64,000 nucleotides of DNA. Source: Draconibacterium orientale (GTDB lineage Bacteria > Bacteroidota > Bacteroidia > Bacteroidales > Prolixibacteraceae). Of the stretch, positions 5,015 to 23,906 are shown piece after piece (within the stretch, counting starts at the first letter, position 1; each line of letters begins with the position of its first letter). The stretch is taken from the NCBI RefSeq assembly GCF_000626635.1, contig NZ_CP007451.1, positions 4,384,501-4,448,500 of the forward strand, in the 5' to 3' direction. Made by a program: the position numbers and the translations under genes. The notes beneath the pieces were generated by a model. It was not told the DNA's origin. It ran no database searches and saw only the letters and a program-made list of their open reading frames with translations.

Positions 5015-6088
5015 ATGAACACTTTTGGAAAGATATTTCGCTTAACCTCTTTTGGCGAATCTCACGGACGAGGAATTGGTGGTATAATCGATGGTTGTCC
5101 GGCAGGGGTTGAACTCGATATAGATTTAATTCAAAATGACCTGGCCAGAAGAAAACCAGGACAGTCGAAAATTACAACACAACGTAAAGAACCGGATCAG
5201 GTAGAGTTTCTTTCTGGTGTATTTGACGGAAAAACCCAGGGAACTCCAATTGCGTTTGCTATTTGGAACAAAGACCAACACTCGAACGATTACAACGATC
5301 TAAAAGATGTATTCCGTCCGTCGCACGCCGATTATACCTACACTAAAAAATACGGTACACGCGATCATCGCGGAGGCGGCAGATCATCGGCACGCGAAAC
5401 TATAGCACGTGTTGTAGCCGGAGCAATTGCCAAACAAATTCTGGCAAAAGCAGGTGTTTCTATTCAGGCTTTTGTTTCTCAGGTTGGAGAAATTAAATTG
5501 CAAAAAAGCTACAAAGAACTTGATCTCACTGCAACCGAGAATAACATTGTACGTTGCCCCGATCAGGAAGTAGCAGAGCAAATGATAGCCCGAATTGAAA
5601 AAGCCGGGCGCGAACACGATACCGTTGGTGGTGTAATTACCGGTGTTGCTACCGGAGTGCCTGCAGGCTGGGGCGAACCCGTTTTTAATAAGCTGCATGC
5701 CGACATGGGCTTTGCAATGCTCGGAATTAATGCCGTAAAAGGATTTGAGTACGGTTCCGGTTTTGACGGAACAAAACTCAGTGGGTCGGAACATAACGAT
5801 ATTTTTATAAAAACAGACGAAGGCGTTCGTACAAAAACAAATAACTCAGGTGGCATTCAGGGAGGAATCTCCAACGGCGAGGACATTTATTTTAATGTTG
5901 CTTTTAAGCCCATCGCTACCTTATTAAAAGAACAACAAACGCTCGACAAGGATGAGCAAAACATAAAAATTAATCCAAAAGGAAGACACGATCCTTGTGT
6001 GCTTCCACGTGCTGTTCCTATCGTTGAGGCAATGGCTGCATTAGTTCTGGTTGACCACTTTTTACTAAATAAACTTAACACAATTTAA
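5015..6088 (+). CDS. aroC: Chorismate synthase
   Basis: AroC converts 5-enolpyruvylshikimate-3-phosphate to chorismate, the last step of the shikimate pathway, using reduced FMN. The N-terminal TSFGESHG motif, the central [21 protein letters not shown] region ([12 protein letters not shown]), and the C-terminal [18 protein letters not shown] motif are all present. I place the start at ATG 5015 (MNTFGKIFR), the family norm, not at a TTG 33 bases upstream. The TAA is separated by one base from the next gene's ATG, so translation coupling with the DUF134 gene is likely. Confidence 0.97.
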
Positions 6089-6089
6089 T

Positions 6090-6506
6090 ATGCCAAGAAG
6101 AAAAAGAAACAGAAGGATCCAGGTACCTCCGGTAATTAAAGGTATGTCGGTTTATGGTGTTCGCGGACGAAAAACAAATGAAGTTATTTTACACCTCGAA
6201 GAATACGAGGCAATTCGTTTGCTGGATTACCAAAATCTTACACAGGAAGAAGCTGCCGTTTTTATGGATGTTTCGCGCCCGACACTTACCCGTATTTACG
6301 AAGAAGCCCGAAATAAAGTGGCAACGGCTTTTGTTGAGGGGAGAGACCTTATTTTCAGAGGCGGTGATGTTTATTTTGATAAAAACTGGTTCAGATGCAA
6401 CAGTTGCAAAGCAAGTTTTAGCGATTACTCTGAAAAGAATGAGAAATGCCCTGTATGCAACTCCGAAGACCTGGTTTCGCTTAACGACTTCTATATGGAT
6501 AAATAA
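6090..6506 (+). CDS. DUF134 (UPF0251) family DNA-binding protein
   Basis: The protein has 138 residues. Residues about 10-95 carry the DUF134 domain: a basic start, then VYGVRGRK, LEEYEAIRLLDYQNLTQEEA and a sigma-70 region-4-like helix-turn-helix in VFMDVSRPTLTRIYEEARNK. The C-terminal part has two Cys pairs (CNSC near residue 105 and CPVC near residue 123) that look like a zinc ribbon. The family is thought to act as transcriptional regulators, but no target is established here. It starts one base after the aroC stop and so appears to be in the aroC transcript. GTG/TTG alternatives were not needed. Confidence 0.88.
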   Translation: MPRRKRNRRIQVPPVIKGMSVYGVRGRKTNEVILHLEEYEAIRLLDYQNLTQEEAAVFMDVSRPTLTRIYEEARNKVATAFVEGRDLIFRGGDVYFDKNWFRCNSCKASFSDYSEKNEKCPVCNSEDLVSLNDFYMDK

Positions 6507-6542
6507 AAGCTTTTTAGCAGGCTTTTGTTAGAAAAAGACAAG

Positions 6543-6673
6543 AAAAAACCTCCGGCTCAATAGCCGGAGGTACCCAATTAAGTTGTGATAAAACCAGAGC
6601 CCTAGTACACTAGGATAGGTGCAATATACAACTATATGTTTTTCGTGTCAATACTTGATTTCTCTTATAAAGA
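6543..6673 (-). ncRNA. Candidate minus-strand small RNA
   Basis: The 420 bases between 6506 and 6927 hold no gene. A perfect 10-bp hairpin (6548-6557 with 6562-6571, loop CAAT) is followed by a run of six T only when read on the minus strand, so it terminates a minus-strand transcript although no minus-strand gene lies upstream. A TAnnTTTG box (TAAATTTG, complement of 6674-6681) sits about 125 bases upstream on that strand, without a clear -33 TTG. Inside are two further small hairpins (ATATAGTTGTATAT and CCTAGTGTACTAGG). I do not recognise the RNA. It could instead be antisense to the aroC-DUF134 3' end. Confidence 0.4.
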
Positions 6674-6824
6674 CAAATTTACCTTAAATAAACTCCCGAA
6701 TCGTAAACCTCATGCGGTTTGTATTGACTATCAATATTTTCCAATAATGTTAATATTTAATAGTTTTTGTTAAACTGCTAATCAGTCCATTTATCATATA
6801 TTTACCTTCCAAAAGAGTTTATCC

Positions 6825-6926
6825 ATGAAACGACCATGAATTTTAACATTTTAAAATTGGCTCAGGCCGAACTTCGTTTCATCGGGAGTTACATCTTATA
6901 CCAATTAAATAAACAATTTTAATAAG
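6825..6926 (+). promoter_or_regulatory. Conserved leader/upstream element, copy 1 (PepSY operon)
   Basis: This 102-base stretch directly before the PepSY gene has three blocks that recur at matching distance before msrB (8520-8623, minus): ATGAAACGACCATGAATTTT at 6825, CATCGGGAGTTACATC at 6880-6895 and TAAACAATTTTAATAAG ending at the ATG. ATGAAACGA (6825-6833) can pair with TCGTTTCAT (6874-6882), making a long hairpin that ends exactly at the second block. It may be a structured 5' leader or a shared regulator site. Confidence 0.6.
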
Positions 6927-7478
6927 ATGAAAATTCGGAAATTACTACGCATTTTACACCGCGATTTTGGGTACTTTATTGTGGCTATGACAATTGTTTA
7001 TGCCGTGTCGGGAATCTATTTAAACCATCGTCACGACTTCAATCCCGATTATAAAATTATCATTACAGATTTTAAGCACGATTTGCAGCCGCAAGAATCG
7101 TATCCGGATGACGAGATTCAAAAAATTGTGGAAAAGGTTCAGCCCGATGTGGTGTATAAAAAACATTACGTTGACAACGATGGCGATATAAAGGTGTTTA
7201 TTGCCAATGGAGAAGTAATAATTTATTCCGGCTCTGGAGAAGGAAGAATGCGCTATCTGCAGCGTCGTCCGTTGATATTTGGTATGAACAAACTTCACCG
7301 GGCAACTCTCGGAACTGCCTGGAAATGGGTGAGCGATACAATGGCCGTTATTCTGTTGTTTGTAGCTGTTTCTGGCTTGTTTATTCTGAAGGGAAAAAGA
7401 GGTTTGCAACGTTGGGGATGGTGGTTAACAGTTGCCGGCTTAGTAGTTCCTTTAATCTTTGTAATTTTATATCTTTAA
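6927..7478 (+). CDS. PepSY-associated transmembrane protein
   Basis: This 183-residue inner-membrane protein looks like the PepSY_TM_like_2 group: MKIRKLLRILHRDFGYFIVAMTIVYAVSGIYLNH at the N-terminus is the typical first helix with HRD and NH. A periplasmic PepSY-like region follows (residues about 40-105), then FGMNKLHRATLGTAWKWVSD and two C-terminal membrane helices. Relatives are often found near iron or copper uptake genes or flavin-linked redox proteins, but nothing here fixes the substrate. The gene is followed after 30 bases by a lipoprotein, probably its partner. Its upstream region is shared with msrB. Confidence 0.8.
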   Translation: MKIRKLLRILHRDFGYFIVAMTIVYAVSGIYLNHRHDFNPDYKIIITDFKHDLQPQESYPDDEIQKIVEKVQPDVVYKKHYVDNDGDIKVFIANGEVIIYSGSGEGRMRYLQRRPLIFGMNKLHRATLGTAWKWVSDTMAVILLFVAVSGLFILKGKRGLQRWGWWLTVAGLVVPLIFVILYL

Positions 7479-7508
7479 CCAACATAAAAAATCCAAAACA
7501 TCAAGAAA

Positions 7509-8009
7509 ATGAAAAAAATTGCATTAATTAGTTTGTTAGCGGTAATTCTGTTTGCCTGTGGTCAGCAAACAAAAAAGCAGGAGGCTAAAGTTGAACCAGA
7601 GAAGTCAGCAGTAGTGCTAAGTGTTGACGAACTTCTTCAGAAAGCGCCTGAGTTAGCCGATAACGAAGTGGTTGTAAAAGGAACAGTATTTCATGTTTGC
7701 CAGCACGGCGGTGAACGTTGTTTTTTAATGGGAAGTACCGAAGATATCTCAATACGTGTTGAAGCCGGTGAAAAACTCGGAGCTTTTACGCAGGAGCAAA
7801 TGGGAAGCGAATTGGAAATTACAGGTATTCTGAAGGAAGTTTTAACCGAAGCCGATGCTCACAATCCGGGTAAAGAGCATGGTGAAGCAGAAGGCGAAGT
7901 TGAAGATGCCGAAACAGCAGCAGCGCATGAAGTTCTTGCTGAAAATCAGGCAGCGGCAGAGCGCGTGTTTTTTATTGAAGGACTGAAGGTAAAAGAAATG
8001 ACAGAGTAG
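7509..8009 (+). CDS. Putative lipoprotein, OB-fold-like
   Basis: The 166-residue product starts with a lipoprotein signal peptide, MKKIALISLLAVILFACGQQ, with lipobox LFAC (Cys at about residue 17). The mature part has VVVKGTVFHVCQHGGERCFLMG, where two Cys and a His lie close together, then a strand-rich region (DISIRVEAG, LEITGILKEV) resembling an OB fold. An acidic, Glu/Ala-rich stretch follows and the protein ends in ERVFFIEGLKVKEM. The two Cys and the His could bind metal or form a disulfide, which is inference. It is cotranscribed with the PepSY protein and converges on msrB. Confidence 0.75.
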   Translation: MKKIALISLLAVILFACGQQTKKQEAKVEPEKSAVVLSVDELLQKAPELADNEVVVKGTVFHVCQHGGERCFLMGSTEDISIRVEAGEKLGAFTQEQMGSELEITGILKEVLTEADAHNPGKEHGEAEGEVEDAETAAAHEVLAENQAAAERVFFIEGLKVKEMTE

Positions 8010-8028
8010 TCAGGCAATACACTCAATA

Positions 8029-8066
8029 CAAAAAAAGGAAAACAATTATTGTTTTCCTTTTTTTGT
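8029..8066. terminator. Bidirectional terminator between lipoprotein gene and msrB
   Basis: AAAAAGGAAAACAAT and ATTGTTTTCCTTTTT form a near-perfect stem with A-run and T-run flanks, so it works for both converging transcripts. The msrB stop codon lies inside the hairpin. Confidence 0.85.
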
Positions 8067-8519
8067 ATCCTTTTCCGCCGGAATAAAATCGAGCGAAACA
8101 GAATTAACGCAATGCCTGGTGTTTTTATCGGTAAAACCTTCACCCATAAATACATGCCCCAGATGTCCGCCACAATTGGCACAGGTAATTTCGGTTCGTC
8201 GTCCGTCGGCATCAACCGTTCGTTTTACTGCACCGTCAATCTCATCATCGAAACTTGGCCAGCCACAATGCGAATCAAATTTATCGGTCGATTTATACAA
8301 GGCTGCCCCACATTGTTTACACACATAAGTGCCATTTTCTTTATAATCCGTGTACTTTCCGGTGAACGGGCGTTCCGTTCCTTTTTCTAAAATTACGTAG
8401 CGTTCAAATTCTGTTAATTTGTTGTATTCCATTTTTTTAGTGTCTTTATTTTGTTGCTCATTTTGGGCGTAACTTACAAAACTTAAACCGAGAATAAATA
8501 ATAATACAATTGTTTTCAT
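8046..8519 (-). CDS. msrB: Exported peptide-methionine (R)-S-oxide reductase
   Basis: MsrB reduces methionine-R-sulfoxide in oxidised proteins. A signal peptide, MKTIVLLFILGLSFVSYAQ, precedes the domain, so the enzyme acts in the periplasm. The domain shows YVCKQCGAALY and TCANCGGHLGHVF (the two zinc Cys pairs), HCGWPSFDDEI, and RHCVNSVSLDF with the catalytic Cys. At 157 residues it is a single MsrB domain without MsrA. Its leader shares three sequence blocks and a hairpin with that of the PepSY-lipoprotein operon, which suggests joint control, perhaps by oxidative or envelope stress (inference). Confidence 0.96.
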   Translation of the reverse strand: MKTIVLLFILGLSFVSYAQNEQQNKDTKKMEYNKLTEFERYVILEKGTERPFTGKYTDYKENGTYVCKQCGAALYKSTDKFDSHCGWPSFDDEIDGAVKRTVDADGRRTEITCANCGGHLGHVFMGEGFTDKNTRHCVNSVSLDFIPAEKDTKKGKQ

Positions 8520-8623
8520 CTCATTAAAATTGTTTAGATCATTTGTATTCGATGTAACTCCCGATGAATTTTAATTCTTCATGTTTATGAAATTTGAAGA
8601 ATAAAAATTCATGTTCGTTTCAT
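8520..8623 (-). promoter_or_regulatory. Conserved leader/upstream element, copy 2 (msrB)
   Basis: Read on the minus strand this begins ATGAAACGAACATGAATTTT, then an 18-bp hairpin with one mismatch (8564-8581 with 8595-8612), then CATCGGGAGTTACATC (8566-8551), then TAAACAATTTTAATGAG up to the ATG. The blocks and spacing match copy 1 at 6825-6926 within two bases. Confidence 0.6.
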
Positions 8624-8723
8624 ACACCTATAACAACCGGAACTCGTGGTGGTTTAACTGCATGCGTTAAGAAATATAAAGAACGAACCTGAATAATACT
8701 ACCTTTGAGCATTTAAACAAAGC

Positions 8724-9407
8724 ATGAATATTCCAGTACTATATCAAGACGAAGCGATAATTGTTGTTGAGAAGCCGATTGAGCTTCCGGTTCATAAAAA
8801 TGATTTTATGCCCAACGATGCGCCATATTTAACCAAATTAATTGGCGATGAAACGGGGAAGTGGATTTATAATGTACATCGTTTAGACTCGAAAACTTCG
8901 GGAGTGATGGTTTTGGCATTATCGTCGGAAGTGGCCAGTGTTTTAACCAAACAGTTTGAGCAGAAGGAGGTACAGAAAACCTACTACGCCATCGTGCAGG
9001 GAAATCCGGGAGAGGGAACGTTCGACTCGAAAGTGTTGGTAAAAAAGAAATCGAAGTTTAAAAAGCCGGCTGTAACACATTATAAAACTTTGCGCACCGT
9101 TCAAACAAAATTGGCTTCGAAAGACAAAACAGATATTGAATTGAGTTTGGTGGAAATTAAGCCCGAAACAGGACGCTGGCACCAGTTGCGCCAGCATTTT
9201 GCCAAAAACAGGTTTGATATTATTGGCGACACGCATCACGGCGATTTTGCGTTGAATAAAATTATTCTGGCTGATACTGATATTCGTCGGCTTTTCCTGC
9301 ATGCCGGGAAGCTTGAATTTAAGCATCCTGTAACTTCAGAAACGGTTTCTTTTGATTCACCAATTCCTGAAGAATTTGATCGGCTGCTAAACTTTTATGA
9401 GTCCTGA
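8724..9407 (+). CDS. truC: RluA-family pseudouridine synthase, TruC-like
   Basis: The protein isomerises uridine to pseudouridine in RNA. The catalytic motif HRLDSKTSGVMVLA (Asp in RLD) is near residue 53, and ETGRWHQLRQHFA with IIGDTHHGD resembles TruC, which acts on U65 of tRNA. There is no S4 domain, and its 227 residues match the TruC subgroup. The exact RNA target is inferred from that similarity. It stands alone as a single gene with no tight operon partner. Confidence 0.85.
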   Translation: MNIPVLYQDEAIIVVEKPIELPVHKNDFMPNDAPYLTKLIGDETGKWIYNVHRLDSKTSGVMVLALSSEVASVLTKQFEQKEVQKTYYAIVQGNPGEGTFDSKVLVKKKSKFKKPAVTHYKTLRTVQTKLASKDKTDIELSLVEIKPETGRWHQLRQHFAKNRFDIIGDTHHGDFALNKIILADTDIRRLFLHAGKLEFKHPVTSETVSFDSPIPEEFDRLLNFYES

Positions 9408-9503
9408 TTCACTCAGATTGTCACGTTTTCTGGTTAATTGATAAAGTTTTTGATTTTCATGTAACGATATTTAGTGCTTTACGTCTTATTCAAAAACAAA
9501 GAC

Positions 9504-23382: not shown

Positions 23383-23906
23383 CGGGGTTAGTTCCCCGAA
23401 GCTCTGCTTCGAAAATAATTTTAAATTTGTTATGTGAGCGAATTTATTCATAAGAGTCATAATGTTTCCGTACTTCTTTACCATTTTGTATGTCCAGCTA
23501 AGTACAGGCGAGTCGTTTTTGACAAAGAGGTTGATGAAAGTTTGAAACAAATATGTATTGAAATCTCGAAGCGTTTTGAAATTCTTTTTATTGAGATTGG
23601 TACAGATAACGACCACGTTCATTTTTTGATACAAAGTGTTCCAATGTTGAGCCCAACTAGAATCATTCAGACAGTAAAAAGTATTACAGCGAAACAAATT
23701 TTCAAGCTTCATCCAAAAGTCAGGCAGCAACTGTGGGGAGGAGAATTTTGGACAAAAGGGTTTTATGTTAGTTCGGTTGGAGCTCATGGTGATGAAGATA
23801 CAATTCAAAGATATGTACAAGCACAAGGAAGACAAAAGGAATATCAGAAACTGCATGTTCAGCAACTTAGCTTATTCTGATACCTCGTCAGCTCTGCTGC
23901 GAGGTA
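23383..23906 (+). mobile_element. IS200/IS605-type insertion sequence, tnpA only
   Basis: A single Y1 transposase gene is bordered by imperfect palindromes: CGAAGCTCTGCTTCG at 23397-23411 (with CGGGG/CCCCG just before it) on the left, and TACCTCG...CGAGGTA around TCAGCTCTGCTG at 23881-23906 on the right. The shared AGCTCTGCT core in both hairpins fits the subterminal hairpins of this family. The exact cleavage sites and the target tetranucleotide cannot be read from one copy. No tnpB or omega RNA is present. Confidence 0.8.
23434..23880 (+). CDS. tnpA: IS200/IS605 family transposase TnpA (Y1)
   Basis: TnpA moves its element as single-stranded DNA. The HUH motif is HVHFLI near residue 63, and the conserved Tyr is in KGFYVSSVGAHGDED near residue 117. 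The length of 148 residues is full and there is no internal stop, so the element may be active. The start is GTG at 23434; an overlapping ATG two bases earlier is out of frame. The element lies between ggt and the nuclease gene and disrupts neither. Confidence 0.93.
   Translation: MSEFIHKSHNVSVLLYHFVCPAKYRRVVFDKEVDESLKQICIEISKRFEILFIEIGTDNDHVHFLIQSVPMLSPTRIIQTVKSITAKQIFKLHPKVRQQLWGGEFWTKGFYVSSVGAHGDEDTIQRYVQAQGRQKEYQKLHVQQLSLF

Follow-up and report, generated by a model that had tools for sequence, protein, structure and literature searches.

Why should two different genes, read from opposite strands, be preceded by the same leader? The question is raised by a window of 64,000 nucleotides (the whole stretch of DNA analysed here: positions 4,384,501 to 4,448,500 of contig NZ_CP007451.1, assembly GCF_000626635.1) from the Draconibacterium orientale chromosome, in which a PepSY-type membrane protein gene (6927..7478, plus strand, 183 codons) and msrB (8046..8519, minus strand, 157 codons, with the stretch RHCVNSVSLDF) each start directly behind such a leader. 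Both gene names are carried over from an earlier note, which had read the leaders as a structured RNA or operator tied to a common function. The two leaders appear instead to be separate insertions of one dispersed mobile element, and not a shared gene switch. With a probability of roughly 0.8, they belong to a family of non-autonomous mobile hairpin elements that insert at the sequence ATGAA, mostly at gene start codons, and are moved in trans. Their mobility is supported by empty sites with exact junctions, by copies arrayed in tandem and by a patchy distribution, alongside a preference for gene starts and a conserved, covarying structure. In what follows, genomes carry the prefix G (the window genome being G000) and fetched loci the prefix L.

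Copy A, before the PepSY gene, and copy B, before msrB, share three blocks. Their order and their spacing to within two bases, noted earlier in front of 6927 (+) and 8519 (−), were borne out when the coordinates were read again. Block 1, ATGAAACGA[C/A]CATGAATTTT, lies at 6825–6844 (+) and 8604–8623 (−), block 2, CATCGGGAGTTACATC, at 6880–6895 (+) and 8551–8566 (−), and block 3, TAAACAATTTTAAT[A/G]AG, at 6910–6926 (+) and 8520–8536 (−), with 55 bases from block 1 to block 2 in copy A and 57 in copy B. The sharing is not due to chance, because CATCGGGAGTTACATC with up to three mismatches occurs three times in the window (twice exactly) against 0.28 expected from shuffles, and its exact matches in the whole 5.13-Mb genome are just the two leaders. 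A repeat finder run on the window returned two inverted pairs, one of 56 nt (88%) and one of 34 nt (79%). A local inverted duplication as the origin of both leaders was rejected, the copies being of different subtypes and the family dispersed; a small protein encoded by the leader (FIGSYI) was dropped as well, since reading frames differ among copies. Both leaders fold better than their shuffles (copy A, z −3.17, 0/200 as good; copy B, z −2.37, 4/200 as good), the minimum-energy folds including a 9-bp ATGAAACGA/TCGTTTCAT stem in copy A and a long interrupted stem in copy B. The hairpins proposed for the two leaders stand to that extent, but the 9-bp stem of copy A is not a conserved pairing, as it needs a 21-bp segment missing from the orthologous copy in the sister genome G005. 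A second stem of copy A, CATCTTAT/ATAAGATG, absent from the earlier note, encloses the start codon itself.

What stands before the same genes in related genomes? Upstream DNA was read in 30 fetched loci with PepSY orthologues, 29 of them readable (L066 ends too near the gene), and in 32 msrB orthologues (30 fetched loci, plus G001 and G019 read within PepSY loci). Each leader is an insertion of 102–104 bp at ATGAA, with ATGAA left on both sides. The filled PepSY site of the window reads ...tttatcc ATGAA | ACGACC...AATAAG | ATGAAAATTCGG, where empty relatives have ...ATGAAAATTCGG (...tttatccATGAAAATTCGG in L042 of G024); in L149 msrB has the empty site ...gttgttataagtggtATGAAAACAATTG (...ataagtggtATGAAAACAATTG). 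No recognisable copy precedes 26 of the 29 PepSY and 29 of the 32 msrB orthologues. The three filled PepSY sites are those of the window genome, of G005, where the same insertion sits at the same place (L040) minus 21 bp present in the window copy, and of G019, whose independent copy is different from the window's and is itself broken by another palindrome. The three filled msrB sites are those of the window genome, of G001, in which two different tandem copies end exactly at the msrB start (L064:260-460), and of G015, where what is probably a degenerate copy lies at the edge of a contig (L171:1-134). Two further msrB matches to the loosest pattern, in L161 and L169, proved spurious on inspection, the third such match being that of G015. 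Orthologous sites are found both empty and filled, with exact ATGAA junctions, which is what is generally asked of a mobile element. A regulon shared by msrB and PepSY was set aside, most orthologues being without a copy, and other copies precede many unrelated genes.

The copies follow a common plan, ATGAA | ACGA-N-CATG ... variable ... CATG-N'-GAG-TT[A/C]-CAT-XYZ-AT ... A/T-rich tail ... AT-zyx | ATGAA-gene, within a size range of about 70–130 bp, minimal copies going down to about 70 bp. In stem I the left arm ATGAAACGANCATG pairs with CATGN'GAGTT[A/C]CAT, with a tandem GA/GA step and a conserved mismatch (A opposite A or C) in 90 of 96 copies. In stem II, CAT-XYZ-AT pairs with AT-zyx-ATG, the gene's start codon included, so that one CAT is used by both stems; GAGTTNCAT, for which the earlier note weighed an ECF-type promoter, is accounted for as one arm of the conserved stem. 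The XYZ/zyx subtypes change in concert (CTT/AAG, ATG/CAT, ACT/AGT, ACG/CGT, CTG/CAG, GTG/CAC, CCG/CGG, CAG/CTG, TCG/CGA and others), and in the CGA/GAG subtype of copy B a tandem G.A pair takes the XYZ/zyx place.

Does this pairing exceed what shuffled arms would give? From fetched loci, 119 distinct genus copies were extracted by a fuzzy pattern, and the 96 with a core ending in CAT were kept (23 of the 119 dropped). In this set 297 of 384 positions are paired, against 187±7 with right arms shuffled among copies; leaving out the copies with a CGAAT arm gives 235 of 256 against 142±7.5, and counting each arm combination once still gives 65 of 84 against 36±4.5, with a maximum of 54 over 5000 shuffles. 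In an alignment of 52 copies picked for intact ends (alignment A1), 93.2% of cells are paired, as opposed to 17.6–39.2% when the arms are slid; all five stem II pairs vary on both sides, and four of five measures beat all 500 shuffles. The strongest and independent evidence comes from the phylum-wide triplet test, in which a pattern with zyx left free was run over named genomes and gave at least 118 stretches: in the 118 distinct elements among the matches listed, 320 of 354 triplet positions are paired, against 163±8 and a maximum of 191 in 2000 shuffles. One inherited change is insufficient to explain this, because many separate triplet pairs are involved. A further alignment (A2) was picked with at least 2/3 of the triplet pairs formed, so its pairing counts are not independent evidence.

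Stem I varies in the same fashion. N/N' is G-C or C-G in 44 of the 49 copies without a long inner stem, AAC/GTT becomes AAT/ATT in relatives (L505, L507, L508, L509 and L512), and the GA/GA step is replaced by AT/AT (L285, L510) or GC/GC (L501, L502); in one set of 20 regions read, L506 and L513 are off-pattern and some others fit in part. In the minimal copies L142, L226 and L262, the inner part is swapped for another stem such as GTCCCGA/TCGGGAC, with the structure kept. A tandem GA step gives stable pairs when the coding strand folds but reads TC/TC on the opposite strand, so the coding strand is the likelier one to be folded, as RNA or as single-stranded DNA. Might the element then be borne by RNA, with a reverse transcriptase turning its folded transcript into DNA again? 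In favour are the coding-strand swaps, in which AT/AT or GC/GC takes the place of GA/GA, and the preference for gene starts. But tandem GA pairs can form in single-stranded DNA too, and 9 of the 23 genomes tested gave no RVT_1 match; of these nine, five have at least 10 element matches and are 99–100% complete (G002, G009, G094, G179 and G372). Such a route is very improbable. As an aside, RVT_1 is matched ten times in the window genome; five of these matches score identically and may be recent copies of an intron.

In the window, copy A with ATGAA on both sides occupies 6825..6931 (+), a net insertion of 102 bp of subtype CTT/AAG at the PepSY gene start codon. Its left ATGAA (6825..6829), the original start codon of that gene, now opens a 4-codon frame, ATG AAA CGA CCA TGA. 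Then come, all on the plus strand, the left arm of stem I, ATGAAACGACCATG (6825..6838, overlapping that ATGAA); the 21-bp segment GGCTCAGGCCGAACTTCGTTT (6859..6879, edges ambiguous), which forms the 9-bp stem; the right arm, GAGTTACAT (6886..6894); the XYZ arm CTTAT (6895..6899), whose partner is the stretch preceding the right start codon; the conserved tail TAAACAATTTTAAT (6910..6923), in the ribosome-binding region of the re-made start codon and presumably serving there; the zyx triplet AAG (6924..6926), complementary to XYZ = CTT; and the right ATGAA (6927..6931), which by its reading frame should be the present start codon. Copy B occupies 8515..8623 (−), a net insertion of 104 bp of subtype CGA/GAG at the msrB start codon, with, on the minus strand, the stem I arms ATGAAACGAACATG (8610..8623) and GAGTTACAT (8552..8560), the triplets CGA (8549..8551) and GAG (8520..8522, a tandem G.A opposite XYZ), and the right ATGAA (8515..8519), by its frame the likely present start codon of msrB.

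Two side observations concern the inside of the copies. A module like GGCTCAGGCCGAACTTCGTTTCA (window 6859–6879) recurs within some of them, for example in L112 and L014, and G005 lacks it in its orthologous copy, which suggests that internal pieces are lost or traded between copies. In L116, L057, L065, L101 and L025, copies contain short palindromes of another sort (CCGTCAGCTGACGG; CCTGCC...GGCAGG), as if a second kind of small repeat had inserted into them.

Where, then, does the element insert? Among genus copies with a long flank, a frame of 98 codons or more begins at the right ATG in 57 of 63, and two of the remaining six are followed by another copy; among the 56 with a short flank, 40 are open to the end of the stretch. 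In the window and 480 kb of two genomes, ATGAA occurs at 155 gene starts, at 340 places between genes and 1363 times inside genes, so that if gene interiors alone were closed to insertion, the expected share of starts would be 0.31 (155 vs 340), as compared with the 57 of 63 observed. The preference is weaker in the phylum-wide set, in which, among the matches listed, the right ATG opens at least 100 codons in 81 of 118 elements; among the printed copies, several from Anaerophaga, Marinilabilia and Thermophagus precede no gene. The strictness of ATGAA is partly imposed, as the searches required or favoured it, but the copy A query ended at ATG and AA still comes next in 29 of 29 elements (30 printed loci). 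The genes behind the copies are diverse and many are unrelated.

A quite different view is that the copies are cis-acting RNA regulators, with stem II holding the start codon and stem I as a sensor, each being kept because it regulates msrB, the PepSY gene or others. When copies A and B are folded, the start codon does come to lie within a stem, the pairing covaries, and the copies mostly stand at gene starts, in sense. Moreover, the PepSY–lipoprotein–msrB neighbourhood has been struck several times independently in the genus, a point in favour of the earlier note: before PepSY in G019, in G020 where the lipoprotein gene that follows PepSY begins (L065:2070-2180), before msrB in G001 and probably in G015. 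These repeat hits are not clearly above chance, because outside the window genome 2 of 31 msrB sites are filled (and 1 of 27 further readable PepSY sites, G005 being counted with the window) against an expected rate of about 2%, a rough estimate from 28 credible copies over some 1,460 ATGAA gene starts in the window genome (the 155 in 544 kb, scaled to the genome). Apart from the many empty msrB and PepSY orthologues, the regulator has against it the diversity of the genes and the lack of any Rfam match, and, among the matches listed, 37 of 118 copies precede no 100-codon frame and 8 of 118 are directly followed by another copy. It would still require a means of exact insertion at ATGAA, and we consider it improbable. 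What remains of the structured leader first proposed is its changed sequence with kept pairing, confirmed by the covarying pairs; its upkeep for a function shared by msrB and PepSY was not supported. A covariance-model search of Bacteroidota, as suggested at the time, did find the element in other genera too.

How large is the family of mobile hairpin elements to which both leaders would belong? As a DNA query, copy A has a best match at E<=1e-3 in 30 of 37 genus genomes, its own included (one of these best matches, L037 in G016, is not an element), and in none of the 24 tested that belong to other families in the order. A pattern of the right end is matched in 35 of the 37 genus genomes, and at least 20 times in 20 of them, some poor copies being among the matches; in the window genome it has 33 matches against 1 for a reversed control. 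Covariance models reach further, with E-values that are rough and the best 10 or 20 candidates scored per genome: a model of genus copies found 22 of 198 order genomes (18 of 150 genera, E<=1e-4), and a second model 28 of 395 phylum genomes (16 of 171 genera, E<=1e-3), other classes included. Of the 30 loci brought in by the order-wide model 26 were printed, and ATGAA stands on both sides in all of these (that on the right of L279, printed out of register, was seen in a separate scan). Carriers among the matches listed include records of Marinilabilia, Anaerophaga, Thermophagus, Parabacteroides, Sunxiuqinia and Puteibacter, and metagenome-assembled genomes of Dysgonamonadaceae and Paludibacter. 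High copy number in such scattered lineages fits mobility. So does tandem growth: the same gene stands behind three copies in G030 (L012) and one copy in G012 (L013), a difference that points to array growth at one site. With the queries used, no element match was obtained in viral contigs (exact pattern), phages or plasmids. A scan of 1.75 Mb of loci revealed no clear longer version carrying genes; it turned up 8 left ends lacking a core and 13 right ends that had no strict left end, and in L379 the left end lies about 0.4 kb before the core, which looks like an interrupted copy. Rfam 15 has no match over either leader at E<=1 (window 6000–9500), and none at gathering scores in 12 chosen fetched loci; no description of the element was found in the open-access literature, subscription papers and preprints being outside that scope.

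How could such a small element move? Upon insertion, ...ATGAA|gene becomes ...ATGAA|ACGAN..hairpin..GAGTTNCAT-XYZ..tail..zyx-ATGAA|gene. The original start codon is left in front, where it often opens only a few codons, and the gene would now be started from the copied ATGAA behind the A/T-rich tail of the element. The element may move as a folded single-stranded nucleic acid, probably by way of a circular or tandem form, with an enzyme acting in trans. In such a form zyx would come directly before ATGAAAC and XYZ directly after GTTNCAT, giving the joined hairpin AT-zyx-ATG-A-AAC-GA-N-CATG ... CATG-N'-GA-GTT-N-CAT-XYZ-AT, whose arm would contain the insertion point ATGAA|AC. The covariation of the two stretches that flank the tail would be explained because the circle or tandem joins both stems into one hairpin. 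In the integrated copy, the XYZ/zyx pairing would hold the start codon in a stem, and an effect on translation is likely, as a secondary by-product.

The joined form calls to mind another enzyme, a tyrosine recombinase acting on the folded hairpin as an integron integrase does on attC, with crossover at ATGAA|AC. Its 7-base arm pair ATGAAAC/GTT[A/C]CAT, GA/GA step, second stem and variable end resemble the attC layout, and there are tandem arrays and an identical ATGAA on both sides. On the other hand, TIGR02249 scores above its cut-off in none of 15 genomes, ATGAAAC does not match the consensus RYYYAAC, and among the matches listed no recombinase family stood out beside the elements. Integrase model matches below the cut-off are uninformative, being present in 15 of 15 genomes tested and also in 14 of 14 control genomes. 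We regard a recombinase of this kind as unlikely.

A Y1 (HUH) enzyme could also move the element, as an IS200/IS605-like or REP-like single-strand element (REP, repetitive extragenic palindrome). Read on the non-coding strand, the order is TTCAT cleavage site, linker, guide, hairpin, TTCAT cleavage site, with a guide-like pairing to the site; in elements of the IS200/IS605 type, according to PMC6006769, a guide 5' of the hairpin foot base-pairs with the cleavage site. Y1 genes are present in 31 of 35 genomes, and three of the four without Y1 (G023, G037 and G057) are also without an element match. But no subclass is shared (subclasses are named after PMC6006769): the sole Y1 gene found is of subclass 1.2 in G034 and a 2.6-like REP-associated tyrosine transposase (RAYT) in G036 (a genome 91% complete), both element-rich. 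In G189 the model matches twice but no Y1 hit was obtained, and G015, with 15 Y1 hits, has no match to the right-end pattern and a single, probably degenerate copy. It is the coding strand whose folding is favoured by the tandem GA pairs, there is no replication-strand bias, and many Y1 genes are printed with palindromes of their own. In the scanned loci no full element lies beside a Y1 gene save in L409, fetched for its element: end patterns with up to two mismatches gave no full element in 30 Y1 loci (a partial look-alike in seven), and in 20 further RAYT loci none has an element directly beside the RAYT gene, two copies in L318 being kilobases away. The flanks of 15 RAYT genes hold other sequences, many of them GC-rich palindromes. 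A Y1 enzyme as mover is doubtful.

Particular Y1 genes were considered as sources and rejected. The window genome has RAYT genes at 4997877 and 5014142, with elements between them at 5001631, 5004424 and, weakly, 5008810; these genes have their own palindromes instead. Among the subclass 1.2 genes, 33 loci were printed, and an element at the start was seen only in L409, where it lies (183-272) exactly at the start codon, a single case in a locus picked for its element. The IS200 element of G031, with three identical aligned copies and a relative in the window, has ends that differ from those of the hairpin element. That relative is an IS200/IS605-type Y1 transposase gene at 23464–23826 (+) of the window (G000:C1:4407964-4408326), with related copies in G031, four loci of which were fetched. 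Orphan subclass 1.2 Y1 genes (Y---Q--HH; L183-L205, L301-L317) are often flanked by short, lineage-specific palindromes; this subclass is described in PMC6006769 as generally without typical IS200 end structures.

Several points weigh against a family of mobile hairpin elements moved in trans. No movement, circle, excision product or cognate enzyme is on record, and the 14 largest protein families beside the elements (at least 118 stretches) include no transposase or recombinase family that stands out; they are, we presume, common ones, for example SusC-like and kinase-like. The covariation alone fits a circle-junction hairpin and a stem II of the integrated copy alike, in DNA or in RNA; the shuffle controls leave the relatedness of copies in place, and the number of pair types in alignment A1 is not above shuffles (345 of 500 reach it). 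As for the target, in 16 of the 56 short-flank genus copies the frame opened by the right ATG soon meets a stop (in 8 of these 16 another copy follows), and the 37 phylum-wide elements without a 100-codon frame count here too. Finally, 22 of 49 elements are co-directional with replication, compared with 61 of 107 ATGAA genes (p=0.17; the elements being 28 window-genome places judged credible by eye and 21 G029 pattern matches that were not individually checked), so there is no significant bias, and no sign of the preference for the lagging strand that a single-strand transposon should show.

If the mobile reading is right, a start-codon-targeting element that brings a replacement initiation region would be an unusual lifestyle for selfish DNA in dense bacterial genomes. 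It would alter the 5' ends of genes, which matters for start-site annotation, short upstream frames and translation. The covarying XYZ/zyx pair predicts which changes should break movement and which should restore it, and in a host phylum abundant in guts and coastal sediments the enzyme of the element is an answerable question. We tentatively entertain, at somewhat less than even odds, that this is a separate class of Bacteroidota mobile DNA: a minimal hairpin that would find its target through GTTNCAT-XYZ/ATGAA pairing, pass through a folded circle or tandem junction and rebuild the start codon. It would then rely on a type of enzyme so far not connected with elements of this sort, and many unrelated genes would have been put under a stem that holds the start codon.

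How does the element compare with known systems? Like REP/REPIN sequences and their RAYT (Y1) enzymes, it would be a short hairpin, dispersed in many copies per genome, also as dimers and arrays, and moved in trans; unlike them, it inserts at ATGAA start codons and has two split covarying stems, and no RAYT gene was seen flanked by it. The REP tag is a GTAG-type or CGTC tetranucleotide at the hairpin foot (PMC3733652); the foot in the consensus of 52 and of 64 aligned copies is ACGA/GAG, with no GTAG or CGTC tag. With IS200/IS605 miniatures it shares the absence of terminal inverted repeats, a fixed insertion motif and a guide/cleavage-site pairing, as PMC6006769 describes them. It differs from these in having one hairpin (stem I) and a long-range stem rather than a hairpin near each end, a longer and covarying guide with the known polarity (5' of the foot) on the non-coding strand alone, and in that element-rich genomes share no one Y1 subclass. 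Integron attC sites and empty cassettes are likewise folded sites with two paired boxes, a variable end, arrays and the same core on both sides; but the core is ATGAAAC / GTT[A/C]CAT here and not GTTRRRY/RYYYAAC, the targets are dispersed start codons, and no integron integrase scores above the cut-off. Miniature inverted-repeat elements of DDE transposons are also small and non-autonomous, with a short repeated sequence at their ends, whereas in the aligned copies the 5' end ACGANCATG and the 3' end ...TTTTAATzyx are not inverted repeats, and there is one insertion motif, ATGAA. In kind, the element would be a miniature hairpin mobile element like REPs, IS200/IS605 miniatures and attC; it is set apart from these because each fails at least one of the defining features tested, and there is a fair chance that it forms a class of its own.

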